Below are positions 1,884 to 6,000 of a stretch of DNA of 24,397 nt, piece after piece. The translations under genes were made by a program, and so were the position numbers. Location: IMG/VR virus record IMGVR_UViG_3300025101_000181, positions 1-24,397 of that record; one strand, written 5' to 3'. Under the pieces are notes generated by a model. It searched no databases. It worked only from the letters and a program-made list of their open reading frames with translations, and was not told the DNA's origin. The first letter of the stretch is position 1, and the number at the start of each line of letters is the position of its first letter. The DNA comes from a virus.

Positions 1884-1943
1884 ACTCTGGCATCATAATT
1901 AGACTTCGCAAAGGAGTTAGCATTGAGTAAGTCCAGAGTCGAA
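1880..1943 (+). promoter_or_regulatory. Long-range inverted repeat enclosing a Shine-Dalgarno sequence
   Basis: GACTCTGG (1883-1890) and CCAGAGTC (1933-1940) are perfectly complementary and extend to about 11 bp with one wobble pair. The loop holds the AAGGAG at 1911-1916 and the TTG at 1923. If formed in RNA it would place the start of the small ORF inside a closed loop, as in translational control. It is followed at once by a second perfect inverted repeat, ACACCTG-A-CAGGTGT (1943-1957). Confidence 0.35.
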
Positions 1944-2033
1944 CACCTGACAGGTGTCAAGCAACTTCGTTACCTCACACAGTATCATTTGTTACTTGAC
2001 ACCTTGTCAACACCCTTTTTAGACAGTGTATAA
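1923..2033 (+). CDS. Possible small 36-aa ORF with TTG start
   Basis: A good Shine-Dalgarno sequence, AAGGAG, ends 6 nt before a TTG codon that opens a 36-codon frame. The peptide (beginning MSKSRVEHLTGVKQLRYL if TTG is read as Met) is basic at the N-terminus and leucine-rich with helical character, which looks more like a protein than random translation. Against this, the same DNA carries two palindromic motif copies (1982-1995 and 2028-2041, the second overlapping the stop) and other inverted repeats, so it may be regulatory DNA. No family is recognised. Confidence 0.4.
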   Translation: MSKSRVEHLTGVKQLRYLTQYHLLLDTLSTPFLDSV

Positions 2034-2041
2034 TTTGTTAC
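1982..2041. repeat. Two more palindromic motif copies with promoter-like boxes
   Basis: GTATCATTTGTTAC (1982-1995) is the exact reverse complement of the copies at 1069 and 1143, and GTATAATTTGTTAC (2028-2041) differs from it at one base. The second contains a TATAAT (2029-2034). The first overlaps a minus-strand -10-like GATACT that lies 18 bp from a minus-strand TTGACA (2005-2010 in plus coordinates), a possible antisense promoter towards the winged-helix gene. A plus-strand TTGTCA at 2004-2009 is 19 bp from the TATAAT, longer than optimal. Confidence 0.55.
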
Positions 2042-2099
2042 CGATTTTTTTTGCCCCCCGTGGTGAAAAACGCCTAAGTCCCTAACCTACAAAAGTATC

Positions 2100-2159
2100 C
2101 CATCGAGCGATATATAAAAAATTTCCGAAAATTAAAAAACCCCCTATAGATTTTTGTGG
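2100..2159 (-). terminator. Weak AT-rich hairpin after the minus-strand gene
   Basis: On the minus strand, beyond the stop of the 284-residue gene, AATTT-TCGG-AAATT can form a 5-bp stem with a TCGG tetraloop followed by a T-run. The stem is short and AT-only. The rest of the gap 2042-2159 holds homopolymer runs (T, C and A) and nothing else I can identify. Confidence 0.3.
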
Positions 2160-3014
2160 CTAAGCAAAGTGAAATAAGTCTGGGTGGTTTTTTCGATCTA
2201 AGACTTTCAAGCGACTCTGAGGTTTTACATACTGATCAGTCATCTGCATAACCTTCTCACCTTCATGGTGAAACCAATTTTGAAACAGTAGAAGTCTTTT
2301 GTGAAAGAGATTGACTTGACTGAAACCATCTAAGTTTGCCCCCTCTAAGTGACGGTCAGCAAAATTGAAGATAAGTTTCTCATATAGAAAGAGTCTTTTG
2401 AAGAATACTTTGACCCCATCGTGCCTACTCCAGTCATCTCTGATAATCTCATATGGTGTGTTACTATCCTTTCCTGTCATGTACTCACCTATATGAGGAT
2501 TGATTACAGACATGACTTTATATCTGGAGTGGTCATCTTTCTTAAAGACAAAATCACCAAACCCTTGATTATCAACAAAGCATATCTGTGTACCATCAAA
2601 CAGTAGGTTACACATGGCAATGTCATAGGGACCCCAGAGGACTGAGGAGTCACTTACATGAAACTTCTCGTAGTGTTTATATTGCCAGAACTGCATCTCA
2701 TCAGTGAGTTCCCTATCATCTAAGGGTTTACCACGATGAAACTCTTGAGTAATTGTGAATACACTTGGTGTTGTGCCATCTGTTCTCTCGGAAGTAAGAG
2801 TGAACTTGGGTATGATCCAAGGGTATGACATAGAAAAAACAGGGTCACGAAAGACTCCTGTCTTATTCTTCATATGGTGCAATTGAGTATTGAATCTATC
2901 ATTCATCTTCTCAAAAGACTTTTGGTTATTTGAAACATTATGAGAGGATATCTCATACCTTTTGACTATTGAAAACTTTCTCTTACAATAGAAAAGGGGT
3001 GGTTGCTTGTTCAT
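2160..3014 (-). CDS. Hypothetical protein (284 aa), possibly kinase-like fold
   Basis: I do not recognise this protein with confidence. It starts from the ATG at 3014, preceded by a purine-rich GAGAGAGA; a TTG at 3041 in the same frame would add nine residues and overlap the upstream stop as TTGA. Near the middle, a segment D-I-A-M-C-N-L-L followed after seven residues by FVDNQGFGDF resembles the catalytic-loop Asp/Asn and metal-binding Asp spacing of kinase-like phosphotransferases, but a glycine-rich loop and a clear Lys/Glu pair are not evident, so this is only a hint. The C-terminal third is rich in aromatic and basic residues, with no signal peptide or membrane span. It lies 23 bp downstream of the membrane peptide gene on the same strand and probably shares its transcript. 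Confidence 0.7.
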   Translation of the reverse strand: MNKQPPLFYCKRKFSIVKRYEISSHNVSNNQKSFEKMNDRFNTQLHHMKNKTGVFRDPVFSMSYPWIIPKFTLTSERTDGTTPSVFTITQEFHRGKPLDDRELTDEMQFWQYKHYEKFHVSDSSVLWGPYDIAMCNLLFDGTQICFVDNQGFGDFVFKKDDHSRYKVMSVINPHIGEYMTGKDSNTPYEIIRDDWSRHDGVKVFFKRLFLYEKLIFNFADRHLEGANLDGFSQVNLFHKRLLLFQNWFHHEGEKVMQMTDQYVKPQSRLKVLDRKNHPDLFHFA

Positions 3015-3037
3015 AACCGCAAGTCTCTCTCTAGTAG

Positions 3038-3127
3038 TCAAGCGTGAGGATCGTACTTACGTAGTATGTAGAGAGCAATAGCAGCACTTATAGAAGAGGC
3101 ACCGAGTACGATTACAAATAAAGGCAT
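3038..3127 (-). CDS. 29-aa single-span membrane peptide
   Basis: A short frame begins at the ATG at 3127 and ends with a TGA at 3038-3040. The peptide has a hydrophobic stretch of about 20 residues (LFVIVLGASSISAAIALYIL, residues 3-22) followed by RKYDPHA, a typical single transmembrane helix with a positively charged C-terminal flank, so the C-terminus is predicted to be cytoplasmic. It has no clear Shine-Dalgarno sequence and starts a few nucleotides after the T-tract of the terminator at 3131-3187. It does not match the small photosystem or cytochrome b6f subunits I can recall. A kinase-like or hypothetical gene follows on the same strand. Peptides this short are easy to find by chance, but the clean transmembrane pattern and the position support it. 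Confidence 0.5.
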   Translation of the reverse strand: MPLFVIVLGASSISAAIALYILRKYDPHA

Positions 3128-3130
3128 AAC

Positions 3131-3187
3131 AAAAAAAAGAGAAAAAATTTGACTCTCTGCATTCCATCCGTTAGTGAGAGTCAAATT
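3131..3187 (-). terminator. Rho-independent terminator, minus strand
   Basis: AATTTGACTCTC (3146-3157) and GAGAGTCAAATT (3176-3187) form a perfect 12-bp stem with an 18-nt loop. Read on the minus strand it is followed by TTTTCTC and then eight T (3145 down to 3131). It ends the structured transcript that starts at 3435/3436, and lies only a few bases before the ATG of the membrane peptide. Confidence 0.75.
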
Positions 3188-3436
3188 GTTTGGTATACCA
3201 CGAAGTACAACAAATCAAAACTTCATAGTATAGAGAGGTGGGAGGTTGGATTCCTGTGTACCAACAAAACAAGGGCATTTCTACAGTTAGAAAGACTTGT
3301 CTGCCTGAGTCCCGTCTGGTAAGACGATTCTGTTGTTGCCAACAGCGAGCACCACCTCTGACTCATCACCTTAACTAGCAAAATGCCAGTAAGTTTATTC
3401 AGTCACTCCCTGTAAGAGAACCGTCGCCCCCTTACA
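3135..3436 (-). ncRNA. Structured RNA, candidate sRNA or attenuated leader
   Basis: About 300 nt between a consensus promoter and a strong terminator, with no sizeable ORF, visibly more GC-rich than its surroundings from about 3240 to 3430. Predicted helices (plus coordinates): 3411-3416 with 3431-3436, at the very 5' end; 3370-3380 with 3384-3393; 3360-3365 with 3306-3311, enclosing two perfect hairpins, 3330-3345 (CTGTTG/CAACAG, 4-nt loop) and 3313-3326 (CGTCT/AGACG, 4-nt loop); 3278-3293 (TTTCTA/TAGAAA); 3245-3249 with 3261-3265. The helix at 3370-3393 has a G-U pair on the minus strand that would be an A-C mismatch on the plus strand, favouring minus. I checked it against what I remember of tmRNA, SRP RNA, RNase P RNA and 6S RNA and it fits none. 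It may act alone or control the two genes downstream. Confidence 0.65.
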
Positions 3437-3442
3437 TAAATT

Positions 3443-3471
3443 ATTATACTGTATGCTAAAAAGGTTGTCAA
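3443..3471 (-). promoter_or_regulatory. Consensus promoter TTGACA-N17-TATAAT, minus strand
   Basis: On the minus strand a perfect -35 box (3471 to 3466), a 17-bp spacer and a perfect -10 box (3448 to 3443); transcription is expected at 3436 or 3435. The -35 box is embedded in the inverted repeat AGGTTG-T-CAACCT (3462-3474), a possible operator. It lies 7 bp from the ATG of the divergent gene at 3479. Confidence 0.85.
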
Positions 3472-3478
3472 CCTCTAT

Positions 3479-4126
3479 ATGAAAATTTATTTTGATGGGT
3501 GCTCATGGACGGAAGGTGCAGAACTTAGTAACCCTGAGGAAGAGAGATATTCTAAGTTGATCTGTAACAAGATGGGTGCAGAGGAGACAAACCTTGCTAT
3601 AGGTGGTGGATCAAATGATAGGATTGTTAGAAACTTATTAGTCGAAAACAATATTGAGGATTATGACCTAGCAATTATACAGATGACTCACCCTTCCAGA
3701 ACGGAGTTCCTCAAAGGGTTGATAAAAAACAGATGGATGAAGGTGCTTCCAAATCAAAATTACAATAAGTGGTTATACTCAGAGTCTGAAAAAGAAAAAA
3801 AGGAACTATATGAAGAGCATGGTGTTGATAGTTGGGAGACAGGAGATGGACATCCGAAATTTTGGAGGCATTATTACACGAATGTGGCAAATCTCAAGTA
3901 CTTTAATATCAAAGAGAACATACAAAAGCAAACAATCTGCAATCACTGTAAGGTAAAGGGCGTTCCACTCATACTTTGTTCAATAAATCTAAGGTCTAAG
4001 TTACATTTTGACTATCTTATGAGGGTCACTAGCGAAACAAAAGCAAAAAGGGGTCATCCAAACGTGGTTGGACATCAAAAAATTGCAGAAGATGTCATGA
4101 AGTTGGTGCCTTGGGGTGTTTTTTGA
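3479..4126 (+). CDS. SGNH/GDSL-hydrolase-like protein (215 aa)
   Basis: The SGNH hydrolase fold is suggested by a short beta strand followed by FDGCSWTEG (Ser9 as candidate nucleophile in block I), GGGSND at residues 42-47 (block II/III-like Gly and Asn), and near the C-terminus GHPNVVGHQKIA with His193 as candidate catalytic base. Enzymes of this fold hydrolyse or transfer acyl esters, often on glycans. The Asp of the usual DxxH motif is replaced here (Lys190), so the triad may be incomplete or supplied elsewhere. There is no signal peptide. A paralogue with the same residue positions lies at 10994-11635, at the other end of the tailoring island. The start lacks a good Shine-Dalgarno sequence; the promoter is unclear because the divergent RNA promoter occupies the upstream DNA. 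It converges on the sulfotransferase-like gene at 4131. Confidence 0.7.
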   Translation: MKIYFDGCSWTEGAELSNPEEERYSKLICNKMGAEETNLAIGGGSNDRIVRNLLVENNIEDYDLAIIQMTHPSRTEFLKGLIKNRWMKVLPNQNYNKWLYSESEKEKKELYEEHGVDSWETGDGHPKFWRHYYTNVANLKYFNIKENIQKQTICNHCKVKGVPLILCSINLRSKLHFDYLMRVTSETKAKRGHPNVVGHQKIAEDVMKLVPWGVF

Positions 4127-4146
4127 ATGCTCAACACCTCCAAGGC
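4108..4146. terminator. 13-bp hairpin between two convergent genes
   Basis: GCCTTGG-GGTGTT (4108-4120) pairs with AACACC-T-CCAAGGC (4133-4146), a 13-bp stem with one bulged base and a 12-nt loop that contains the stop of the plus-strand gene (4124-4126); the minus-strand stop begins at 4133. No strong T-tract follows on either strand. It could work as a bidirectional terminator or as mRNA end protection. Confidence 0.5.
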
Positions 4147-5039
4147 GTTGTTCCAAACTCATTATACCACTCATCATAGTACTTTGCAAGATATTTTCTA
4201 CCATAAACCAAGTCATCATCAGTCAAGTCTTCTAAATCTGAGTCATATTGGTCACGAAGGTTTTCATAGTGTGGTGCTTTTGTTCCCATCTCAGGATAAT
4301 AGCAGTTTGGCCATAGATTTTTGATGTTATATTGTAAAAAATTACTAAGTTTTGCAACTTGATCATTTTTCCCTCCCCATAAGTCCTCTGACACCACAGG
4401 TAATGTGCTGAACACACACTTGAGACGTTTATATCTGCTTACATATTCACAATTTTCGTCAAAATTACCTTTTTTTAGATAATCCCAGTAAAAATCTTTG
4501 GAAGTTTGGTATTTTTTACGTAAATTTTCGTCATTTTGGTATTTGTGAGATAATTCACTGTATAATCTGCGAACTGGATCACGAAAAATGATCAAAACTT
4601 TGATTTTAAAGTGTTTTTTCAATTCTGGAGCAATTTTTTGTAAAAAATCCAGTGGTAATTGAGCATTGCTGTTTGAAAAGTCGGCAACATACGAATATTC
4701 GTGTTTTACTCTCTCGTAATGCCGAGTATAATACTTGATATAAGTTTCTAGACTTGGTTTTTGATATAATTCGTGAATTTCGTCGAGATTTTGATGAAAT
4801 GCATATTTACTTTGTCTTCCCCACTCATATTTCCATACTGGACTCATAGAACCTCTTATATGATTCTCATAATCTGGTTTTCTCCATTCCCAAGCGTCTT
4901 CACTATATACATGATACAAGAGATGATCCTCTTTCTTCAATCCTACGTGAGCACACTTATTTGAGCACTGTAAAGTCATGTAAAGTGGACTTGTAGCACT
5001 CCAACCCGTGCCTGCACATATAATTAATGGAACTCTCAT
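4131..5039 (-). CDS. Sulfotransferase-like protein 1 (302 aa)
   Basis: PAPS-dependent sulfotransferase fold is inferred from an N-terminal strand and loop GTGWSATSPL (residues 10-19), in the place of the 5'-phosphosulfate loop, and FRDPVRRLYS (152-161), a good match to the 3'-phosphate-binding motif R-[ND]-P-x-x-R-x-x-S. The C-terminal part (YYPEMGTKAPHY, then an acidic stretch) is shared with the three plus-strand paralogues. I chose the ATG at 5039 because it aligns with the paralogues; an in-frame ATG at 5102 would add 21 unrelated residues lying antisense to the neighbour. The lysine normal in the PAPS loop is replaced by Trp13. The gene is divergent from paralogue 2 and their start codons share CATG. 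The substrate is unknown. Confidence 0.8.
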   Translation of the reverse strand: MRVPLIICAGTGWSATSPLYMTLQCSNKCAHVGLKKEDHLLYHVYSEDAWEWRKPDYENHIRGSMSPVWKYEWGRQSKYAFHQNLDEIHELYQKPSLETYIKYYTRHYERVKHEYSYVADFSNSNAQLPLDFLQKIAPELKKHFKIKVLIIFRDPVRRLYSELSHKYQNDENLRKKYQTSKDFYWDYLKKGNFDENCEYVSRYKRLKCVFSTLPVVSEDLWGGKNDQVAKLSNFLQYNIKNLWPNCYYPEMGTKAPHYENLRDQYDSDLEDLTDDDLVYGRKYLAKYYDEWYNEFGTTPWRC

Positions 5040-6000
5040 GAAACCAGTCTTATTATTGAATATTGGTACTTGTTTTTCTGCAACAACTCCTTTATGGTAC
5101 ACTTTATCATATGATAATATGTATGTTCACAATGGACATACCAAAGAACACCACTATCTTTATGCATTGTACGCAAAAAGAGAAAATTTACCAGAATACC
5201 AAGTAATAAAAGATGAATTGGTGGATAAAGGTAATAATATTAGTAAACAAAGGAATATATTTAACAAATTAGAGTATGAGGAGAAGATGCAGTCAAAGGA
5301 ATATAGAAAAACACATAAACCTATCGAATTTACCTCGTGGTCAAAGTATATTAAGTTTGATGGAAAAGATTTCTTTGAAAAAGACCTTACATTGCAAAGA
5401 TATATTGATTATCTCTTAGAACACTACAATTATATAAAAGATGACTTTGTTGGAGTTGCAGATTTCTCAAATAGTCTTGCAAAACTGCCAAAAGAATTTA
5501 TAAGTGAGATAAGCACTAAGTTATTGGAAAATTTTGATGTGAAGGTGACCATGATCTTCAGAGACCCTGTTAGGAGATTATTTTCTACTGCCAACAGAGT
5601 ATCTCAGTGCCAAGGTCATAGAGATCCTGTCAATATGATCAAAGTGTGGGTAAATGGTCAAATGGAGGAGAATGTTTACTATTCTAACATTTACAATAAC
5701 TGGTCTAGCGTATTTGGTAAAGAAAAAGTCCACATGATTGTAATGGAGGAGTTTTCGGCAGGTAAAATACAATCACTCTGTAAATTTTTAGATTTTCCAA
5801 TAGAAAAGATTCATCAAAATGTTTATTATCCAGATATGGGTGCAAATGCACCTCGTTATGAATATTTGGCAGATCAATGGCGATCTGATATAGTTTCGTT
5901 AGATGATGACCTGTATAAACATCTATATGAGCGTATGAGTTTTGTGTATGATGAATTTGAGGAAACTTTTGGTTATATACCCGAATCGTGGAAAAAGTAA
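5038..6000 (+). CDS. Sulfotransferase-like protein 2 (320 aa)
   Basis: Begins MKPVLLLNIGTCFSATTPL; the loop at residues 10-19 corresponds to the 5'-phosphosulfate loop with Phe13 where lysine is usual, and FRDPVRRLFS lies at 174-183 (3'-phosphate binding). ADFSNS near 140-147 and NVYYPDMG near the C-terminus are shared by the paralogues. An upstream in-frame ATG at 5008 is possible, but the start at 5038 aligns best with the other copies. A TATAAT at 5019-5024 without a good -35 box lies inside the divergent gene and would give a leader of only about seven bases. The next gene overlaps by 13 bp, so the two are probably co-translated. Expected role: transfer of sulfate from PAPS to a hydroxyl or amine; the acceptor is unknown. 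Confidence 0.8.
   Translation: MKPVLLLNIGTCFSATTPLWYTLSYDNMYVHNGHTKEHHYLYALYAKRENLPEYQVIKDELVDKGNNISKQRNIFNKLEYEEKMQSKEYRKTHKPIEFTSWSKYIKFDGKDFFEKDLTLQRYIDYLLEHYNYIKDDFVGVADFSNSLAKLPKEFISEISTKLLENFDVKVTMIFRDPVRRLFSTANRVSQCQGHRDPVNMIKVWVNGQMEENVYYSNIYNNWSSVFGKEKVHMIVMEEFSAGKIQSLCKFLDFPIEKIHQNVYYPDMGANAPRYEYLADQWRSDIVSLDDDLYKHLYERMSFVYDEFEETFGYIPESWKK

Follow-up and report, generated by a model that had tools for sequence, protein, structure and literature searches.

Results

A promoter, a folded RNA and a terminator precede two genes

The window analysed here is a 24,397-nucleotide stretch of viral DNA (IMG/VR record IMGVR_UViG_3300025101_000181, positions 1 to 24,397). On its minus strand, a promoter is followed by a folded RNA of about 200 nucleotides, an intrinsic terminator, and open reading frames (ORFs) of 29 and 284 residues (Table 1). 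An earlier note, made from the letters alone, had described this arrangement, and most of its parts hold. The TTGACA-N17-TATAAT promoter is the sole site matching at 12 of 12 positions in a promoter scan of 1900-5200. The note's remark that no other promoter is visible for the two genes also agrees with the scan, which returned no minus-strand site of at least 9/12 between 3443 and 3040. Both ORFs are present, as is the 12-bp terminator with its T-run, which can be read directly from the sequence and was detected by two custom scans; a stock terminator scan missed it because the loop exceeds the length which that scan allows. A second short hairpin region lies between the structured stretch and the terminator. 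As for the proposed RNA structure, the 310-nt stretch has a minimum free energy (MFE) of -97.8 kcal/mol versus -77.4 ± 4.9 kcal/mol for shuffled sequences (z = -4.2, with none of 100 shuffles equalling it), and it matches an Rfam family (see below); the note's count of seven helices is superseded, the fold having 12, pseudoknot included. As read from the sequence, the promoter, the pseudoknotted fold and, here, the intrinsic terminator make up a self-contained transcription unit.

Table 1. Positions of the manA RNA, its transcription signals and the genes behind it in the window
Feature	Position	Strand	Basis
Sigma70-type promoter TTGACA-N17-TATAAT (-35 TTGACA, 3471-3466; spacer 17; -10 TATAAT, 3448-3443)	3443..3471	minus	12/12 match
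manA RNA (Rfam RF01745), full-length match	3235..3434	minus	covariance model
5' hairpin (helix 1), at expected transcription start	3413..3434	minus	cmscan alignment
Pseudoknot GGGAG (3410-3406) / CUCCC (3244-3240)	3240..3410	minus	kept in 63/63 relatives
Central helix UGAGUC (3365-3360) / GACUCA (3311-3306)	3306..3365	minus	helix 5 of manA fold
Variable hairpin with GCAA (GNRA-type) tetraloop	3330..3345	minus	helices 7-8 of fold
Intrinsic terminator, arms AATTTGACTCTC (3187-3176) / GAGAGTCAAATT (3157-3146), 12 pairs, 18-nt loop, then T-rich tail reaching 3131	3131..3187	minus	sequence, MFE fold, terminator scans
29-residue membrane peptide ORF, MPLFVIVLGASSISAAIALYILRKYDPHA	3038..3127	minus	relatives in 4 loci
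284-residue ORF, family not assigned	2160..3014	minus	relatives at 53-55% identity

The folded RNA is a manA RNA

When the window was scanned against Rfam 15 with cmscan, a single match was returned, to the manA RNA (RF01745), with a score of 181.5 bits (gathering score 55.2), an E value of 2.5e-49 and coverage of model positions 1-192 of 192. Our own covariance model R1, which was built with the window included, scores the RNA at 204 bits. That the window RNA is a manA RNA of a T4-like cyanophage is thus virtually certain. It is a new member of an already catalogued family, and the idea that it represents a novel one, put forward because no RNA family seemed to match, is refuted by the RF01745 match. 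The 2010 description of manA treated its being an RNA as certain, proposed it as a candidate riboswitch, and placed nearly all examples in T4-like cyanophages and marine metagenomes (PMC2864571). The manA sources in our analysis comprise 39 cyanophage and marine virus records, and the phage origin of the window fits the family since its genes include one for a T4-type baseplate wedge subunit and one for a Nol-like carbamoyltransferase.

Covariation was assessed in an alignment of 63 non-redundant manA relatives, using the Rfam structure plus the pseudoknot. In this alignment, 92.2% of the cells are paired, and both partners have changed in 34 of the 55 pairs. Double-change cells number 351 versus 102 ± 11 after shuffling, a value that none of 500 shuffles reached; when the partner is slid by one column, pairing falls to 47%, and all slid versions were exceeded. 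All six pairs of helix 1 show double-sided changes, and helix 5, the central TGAGTC/GACTCA helix, is 99% paired with compensatory changes in five of its six pairs. The helices, the central one included, covary strongly, and the differences among relatives do not break them. The GGGAG/CUCCC pseudoknot is paired but never varies in the 63 relatives, so that it offers no covariation evidence, while being consistent with the fold. Transcription from the minus strand, as proposed earlier, is supported by this covariation and by the RF01745 model, which matches that strand only. We also encountered divergent manA subtypes scoring 89-142 bits (L138, L168, L383, L302 from S-SSM7 and L135 from P-TIM40), which would better the family model.

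A promoter directly precedes manA in most loci

The presence of its own promoter, which would be expected of a trans-acting small RNA, is a general property of manA. Among 116 non-redundant loci, 107 have a site of at least 10/12 directly 5' of manA, versus approximately 2.7% of random stretches. Seven of the nine loci below this score have a TTGACA box, mostly with TATAAA, and the last two have a tRNA (L109) or a tRNA-like sequence (L058) directly upstream. Since the -10 box ends 20-32 nt before the GGGAGTG sequence, transcription should begin at helix 1. It is thus very probable, judging from these sequence signals, that manA has its own promoter and 5' end. The -35 TTGACA often lies within an upstream terminator hairpin (L002, L030, L048, L054, L126, L131 and others), as exemplified by L002, which reads GGAGGGGTTGACACCCTCC-T7-ATG-CAATAAT, so that one sequence would end the preceding transcript and start manA.

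In the 90 loci found without bias, an upstream terminator was scored in 38 and a downstream one in 34 (38%), the latter versus 23 of 180 random stretches; about 60% of loci have no nearby downstream terminator. Candidate 3' ends of manA's own are a terminator in the window and in these 34 loci, and tRNA processing sites in a few. In the remaining manA loci, neither of these two 3'-end signals is evident.

tRNA genes and a conserved 3' hairpin adjoin manA

In S-SSM7, manA ends at 151563 and a tRNA-Gly gene starts at 151564, a spacing also seen in L020 and L079, while four more loci have a tRNA-Asn gene 7-18 nt past the CTCCC strand. On the other side, a tRNA-Thr gene lies directly upstream of manA in L009, L109 and L119, ending in L109 at 1191 with manA starting at 1192. 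Processing of such abutting tRNAs would release manA.

Many loci carry behind manA a hairpin of the form GACC-UAAGAUGCA-ACUC...GAGU-(C/G)GGGCAGAUGGUC, which is conserved, lies outside the Rfam model and is essentially confined to such sites. Its strands, GACCUAAGAUGCAACUC...GAGUGGGGCAGAUGGUC, are found 15-50 nt past manA (e.g., L013:522-537 and L015:3492-3507). The 16-mer GACCTAAGATGCAACT occurs in 120 contig stretches, nearly all of them directly behind a manA, the remainder being without the 3' partner strand or cut by contig ends; occurrences without manA (L139, L141, L166, L176, L189, L224, L227 and others) have no partner strand and were set aside as chance. A T-tract (six to eight T in eight positions) follows the hairpin in all 35 cases in which neither gp32 nor tRNA-Gly comes next, versus two to four T before gp32 (six in one case) and four before tRNA-Gly. 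The T-tract is thus mostly missing before these two genes, as if read-through matters there. The window is without this hairpin and has an unrelated terminator instead.

The CCUAAG...AUGG strands of the 3' hairpin resemble the 11-nt GAAA tetraloop receptor, and helix 8 of manA is often capped by a GNRA loop. By automatic loop calls, which are imperfect, GNRA loops and the CCUAAG hairpin show no significant association (p = 0.25), and docking between the two has no statistical support and is kept as a lead only. UUCG loops were seen only in loci without the 3' hairpin (7/83 versus 0/67 with it), a difference confounded by relatedness.

manA is kept at one copy and changes place

Exactly one manA is found in each of 16 phage records (the 15 first found, which include two near-duplicate pairs, and S-SSM7, the only carrier among 10 further cyanophages checked) and in each of 37 viral contigs of 21-236 kb. 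Its surroundings vary: it lies behind gp23 or pstS, ahead of transaldolase, gp32 or a carbamoyltransferase, or in the gap from regA to purL. The consistent set of controlled genes that a cis-regulatory element should have was not found, as downstream ORFs match 52 PHROG families (110 loci) and the RNA has changed place between P-HM1 and P-HM2. Some genes do recur, namely gp32 (19 loci), transaldolase (15), thyX (10) and phosphomannomutase (10).

The P-HM1/P-HM2 pair is informative, since the two phages are assigned to one species and their core genes are 88-92% identical. In P-HM1, manA occupies the spacer that follows gp23, with a terminator/promoter before it and another terminator after it. 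In P-HM2, the spacer behind gp23 holds a simple terminator, and its flanks align without the promoter-manA-terminator cassette. The manA of P-HM2 is found instead in the interval from pebS to gp32, which in P-HM1 is a mere 48-nt spacer. The sites differ, and each phage's site is empty in the other; manA thus moved without any change in its copy number of one. We consider it likely, with good confidence, that manA is an autonomous, relocatable unit.

The longest adjacent ORF is co-oriented with manA more often downstream (99/109, 91%) than upstream (88/114; p = 0.006), although this use of gene orientation as a strand test is blurred by spurious antisense ORFs. Together with the recurrence of gp32, transaldolase and thyX, this indicates that many manA transcripts run into genes.

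Several annotated "hypothetical proteins" overlie manA and are probably not genes: PHM2_011/012 (NC_015284 4849-5023), SSSM5_127 (NC_015289 116417-116623), PSSM4_169.1 (NC_006884 164884-165057), PHM1_121 (NC_015280 112705-112881) and SSSM7_180 (NC_015287 151441-151572). A search of cellular sequences gave 60 pattern matches in genome contigs. Two of the five most plausible by source, which were the ones checked, are manA: one lies on a 189-kb contig from a single Prochlorococcus cell, the other in the metagenome-assembled genome of a gammaproteobacterium, probably as phage DNA. The size of the former contig (L267, QCLS01000003.1, Prochlorococcus sp. AG-418-C09) points to a phage genome that was amplified along with the cell.

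The genes behind manA in the window and the proposed switch

The 29-residue peptide is real, as judged from its close relatives (MPLFLIVLGASxxGAxxALYIxRKYDP.., 29-31 residues) in L034, L182, L363 and L383. Of the five peptide genes, four lie right behind manA (those of the window, L034, L182 and L383, the manA of L383 being divergent, at 129 bits), and in all four a terminator-like hairpin separates the two, its T-run reaching nearly to the ATG. In L363, the peptide is encoded elsewhere on the manA-bearing contig. L383 has a second small ORF, MLLFLLICIIAVLYFVVFLNKFDPH, between manA and the peptide, of which the spacer in the window looks like a remnant. The 284-residue gene has no Pfam or PHROG match, and its structure model (pLDDT 36) was unusable and gave no function. 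Its relatives (L383, L384 and one phage record, at 53-55% identity) are not directly behind manA in L383 and L384, and the gene is therefore not tied to manA. The peptide associates with manA more closely than this gene does, so that a local regulatory role is possible.

The earlier note had also proposed that the TGAGTC strand of the central helix pairs alternatively with the terminator's 5' arm, switching the RNA between two folds. Our test for such an expression platform, which covered the central-helix strand only, gave a null result. Across 120 non-redundant loci, the mean longest match between the helix-5 strand and its own downstream region is 4.31 versus 4.29 when permuted, with 89 of 200 permutations as high. 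Among the 13 members with a TGAGTC helix, the window alone has TGACTC downstream, and in the common 3' hairpin, too, the arms show no tracking of helix 5. The helix/terminator switch is accordingly not conserved. Some other form of attenuation is possible, considering the hairpin found between manA and the peptide in four loci.

Discussion

On the strength of its sequence context, we favour the view, at about even chances, that manA is an autonomous RNA gene driven by host sigma70, which acts mainly in trans and whose neighbours are transcribed by read-through. A promoter of the host-sigma70 type, and of an early type, would place the start of the RNA on nucleotide 1 of the manA fold, and the phage would keep it at one copy as an autonomous RNA gene. 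The RNA would do most of its work in trans, perhaps by attaching to the ribosome or to a protein of the host or phage, and downstream genes would often be transcribed by read-through without being dedicated targets. A dedicated switch accounts less well for the single copy, the promoter of its own, the relocation and the unrelated neighbours than such an RNA gene does. Because co-orientation is commoner for downstream than for upstream ORFs, a terminator is missing from most loci and the T-tract is lost before gp32 or tRNA, we hold action in trans, taken by itself, at somewhat less than even and keep leader models under consideration.

One leader model, shared by the earlier note, is that of a cis-acting metabolite riboswitch or attenuator, in which a ligand controls termination or translation of the next gene (Weinberg 2010; Rfam type Cis-reg). 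It was published as a candidate (PMC2864571) and would account for the 91% co-orientation, for the terminator just after manA in 38% of loci, for the one between manA and the same peptide gene in four loci, and for the role of several downstream genes in sugar or nucleotide metabolism. A dedicated switch is nevertheless hard to reconcile with one copy per genome, differing next genes and relocation within one species. The helix/terminator switch is not conserved, tRNA genes immediately adjoin manA, and gp32 and transaldolase follow it both with and without an intervening hairpin, all of which make this explanation unlikely. By analogy with HK022 put or the EAR (epsC) element, nascent manA RNA might instead bind RNA polymerase at the promoter and carry it past the first and later terminators, whatever genes follow. 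Such processive antitermination would explain why manA is always 5'-terminal behind a strong promoter, why any gene type, tRNA included, may lie downstream, and why terminators behind manA are followed by genes without an evident promoter. However, about 60% of loci have no nearby terminator to overcome, a single copy per genome would serve one operon only, and nothing in sequence or structure linked manA to put or EAR, cmscan having given manA alone. We regard it, too, as improbable.

A further possibility, and a more doubtful one, is that the compact pseudoknotted fold shields the 5' end of early transcripts from host RNase E. The fold does begin at the expected transcription start and its downstream partners are unrelated, but several copies would be expected of a generic stabiliser, where one per genome is found. 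Moreover, the strict conservation of loop sequences exceeds the needs of simple protection, and manA in P-HM1 is flanked by terminators. As for a chance fold or an artefact, the generic folding ability of any 300-nt RNA is all that speaks for it, and the Rfam E value and strong covariation reduce its probability to practically nil.

A bolder, combined reading is that manA is a trans-acting viral RNA gene and not a riboswitch, which Prochlorococcus and Synechococcus myoviruses carry at exactly one copy per genome in a promoter-RNA(-terminator) cassette able to relocate among unrelated sites. It would include a conserved 3' hairpin domain that the Rfam model lacks, and might be exchangeable with wcaG. 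This combined proposal is tentative, and we place it on the doubtful side of even. Should manA indeed be an RNA gene that stands alone in one copy, work on its function would turn away from metabolite ligands and adjacent genes, towards early infection and partners of protein or RNA. RNA-seq data have been published for infection by P-HM2, which carries manA (PMC5082946).

Several known systems offer points of comparison. GOLLD and ROOL are structured phage RNAs with functions not assigned, often near tRNA genes (PMC12286853). They are much larger than manA and form nanocages, and the likeness is one of context only, with no sequence or fold link claimed. The HK022 put and EAR (epsC) antitermination elements are promoter-proximal folded RNAs before varied genes; manA can be compared with them in the way it might work, and cmscan detected no family membership. 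Closest in origin is the wcaG RNA (RF01761), which comes from cyanophages and from the same 2010 study, likewise has no assigned function, and differs from manA in fold and length (98 positions). Five genomes bear it, four of them at a single place and Syn1 with two adjacent matches. None of 23 genomes has both RNAs (14 manA only, five wcaG only, four neither), which gives a hypergeometric probability of 0.004, calculated by hand, ignoring relatedness and on a sample partly chosen by manA. This suggests that the two possibly replace one another; S-CREM1 has been reported with both (PMC9964418).

The window RNA itself shares with the published manA RNA its family, helices, invariant pseudoknot strands and marine T4-like cyanophage source (PMC2864571). 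Since 2010, manA has figured in the literature as a probable riboswitch, and the label "cis-regulatory" is repeated in recent papers on cyanophage genomes. What we describe on copy number, change of place, promoter and 3' hairpin appears to be new: our literature search met with no earlier report, although one may exist. What is added to the RF01745 description is a near-universal own promoter, a single copy with relocation, exact abutment of tRNAs and, in a large subset that does not include the window, a 3' hairpin.
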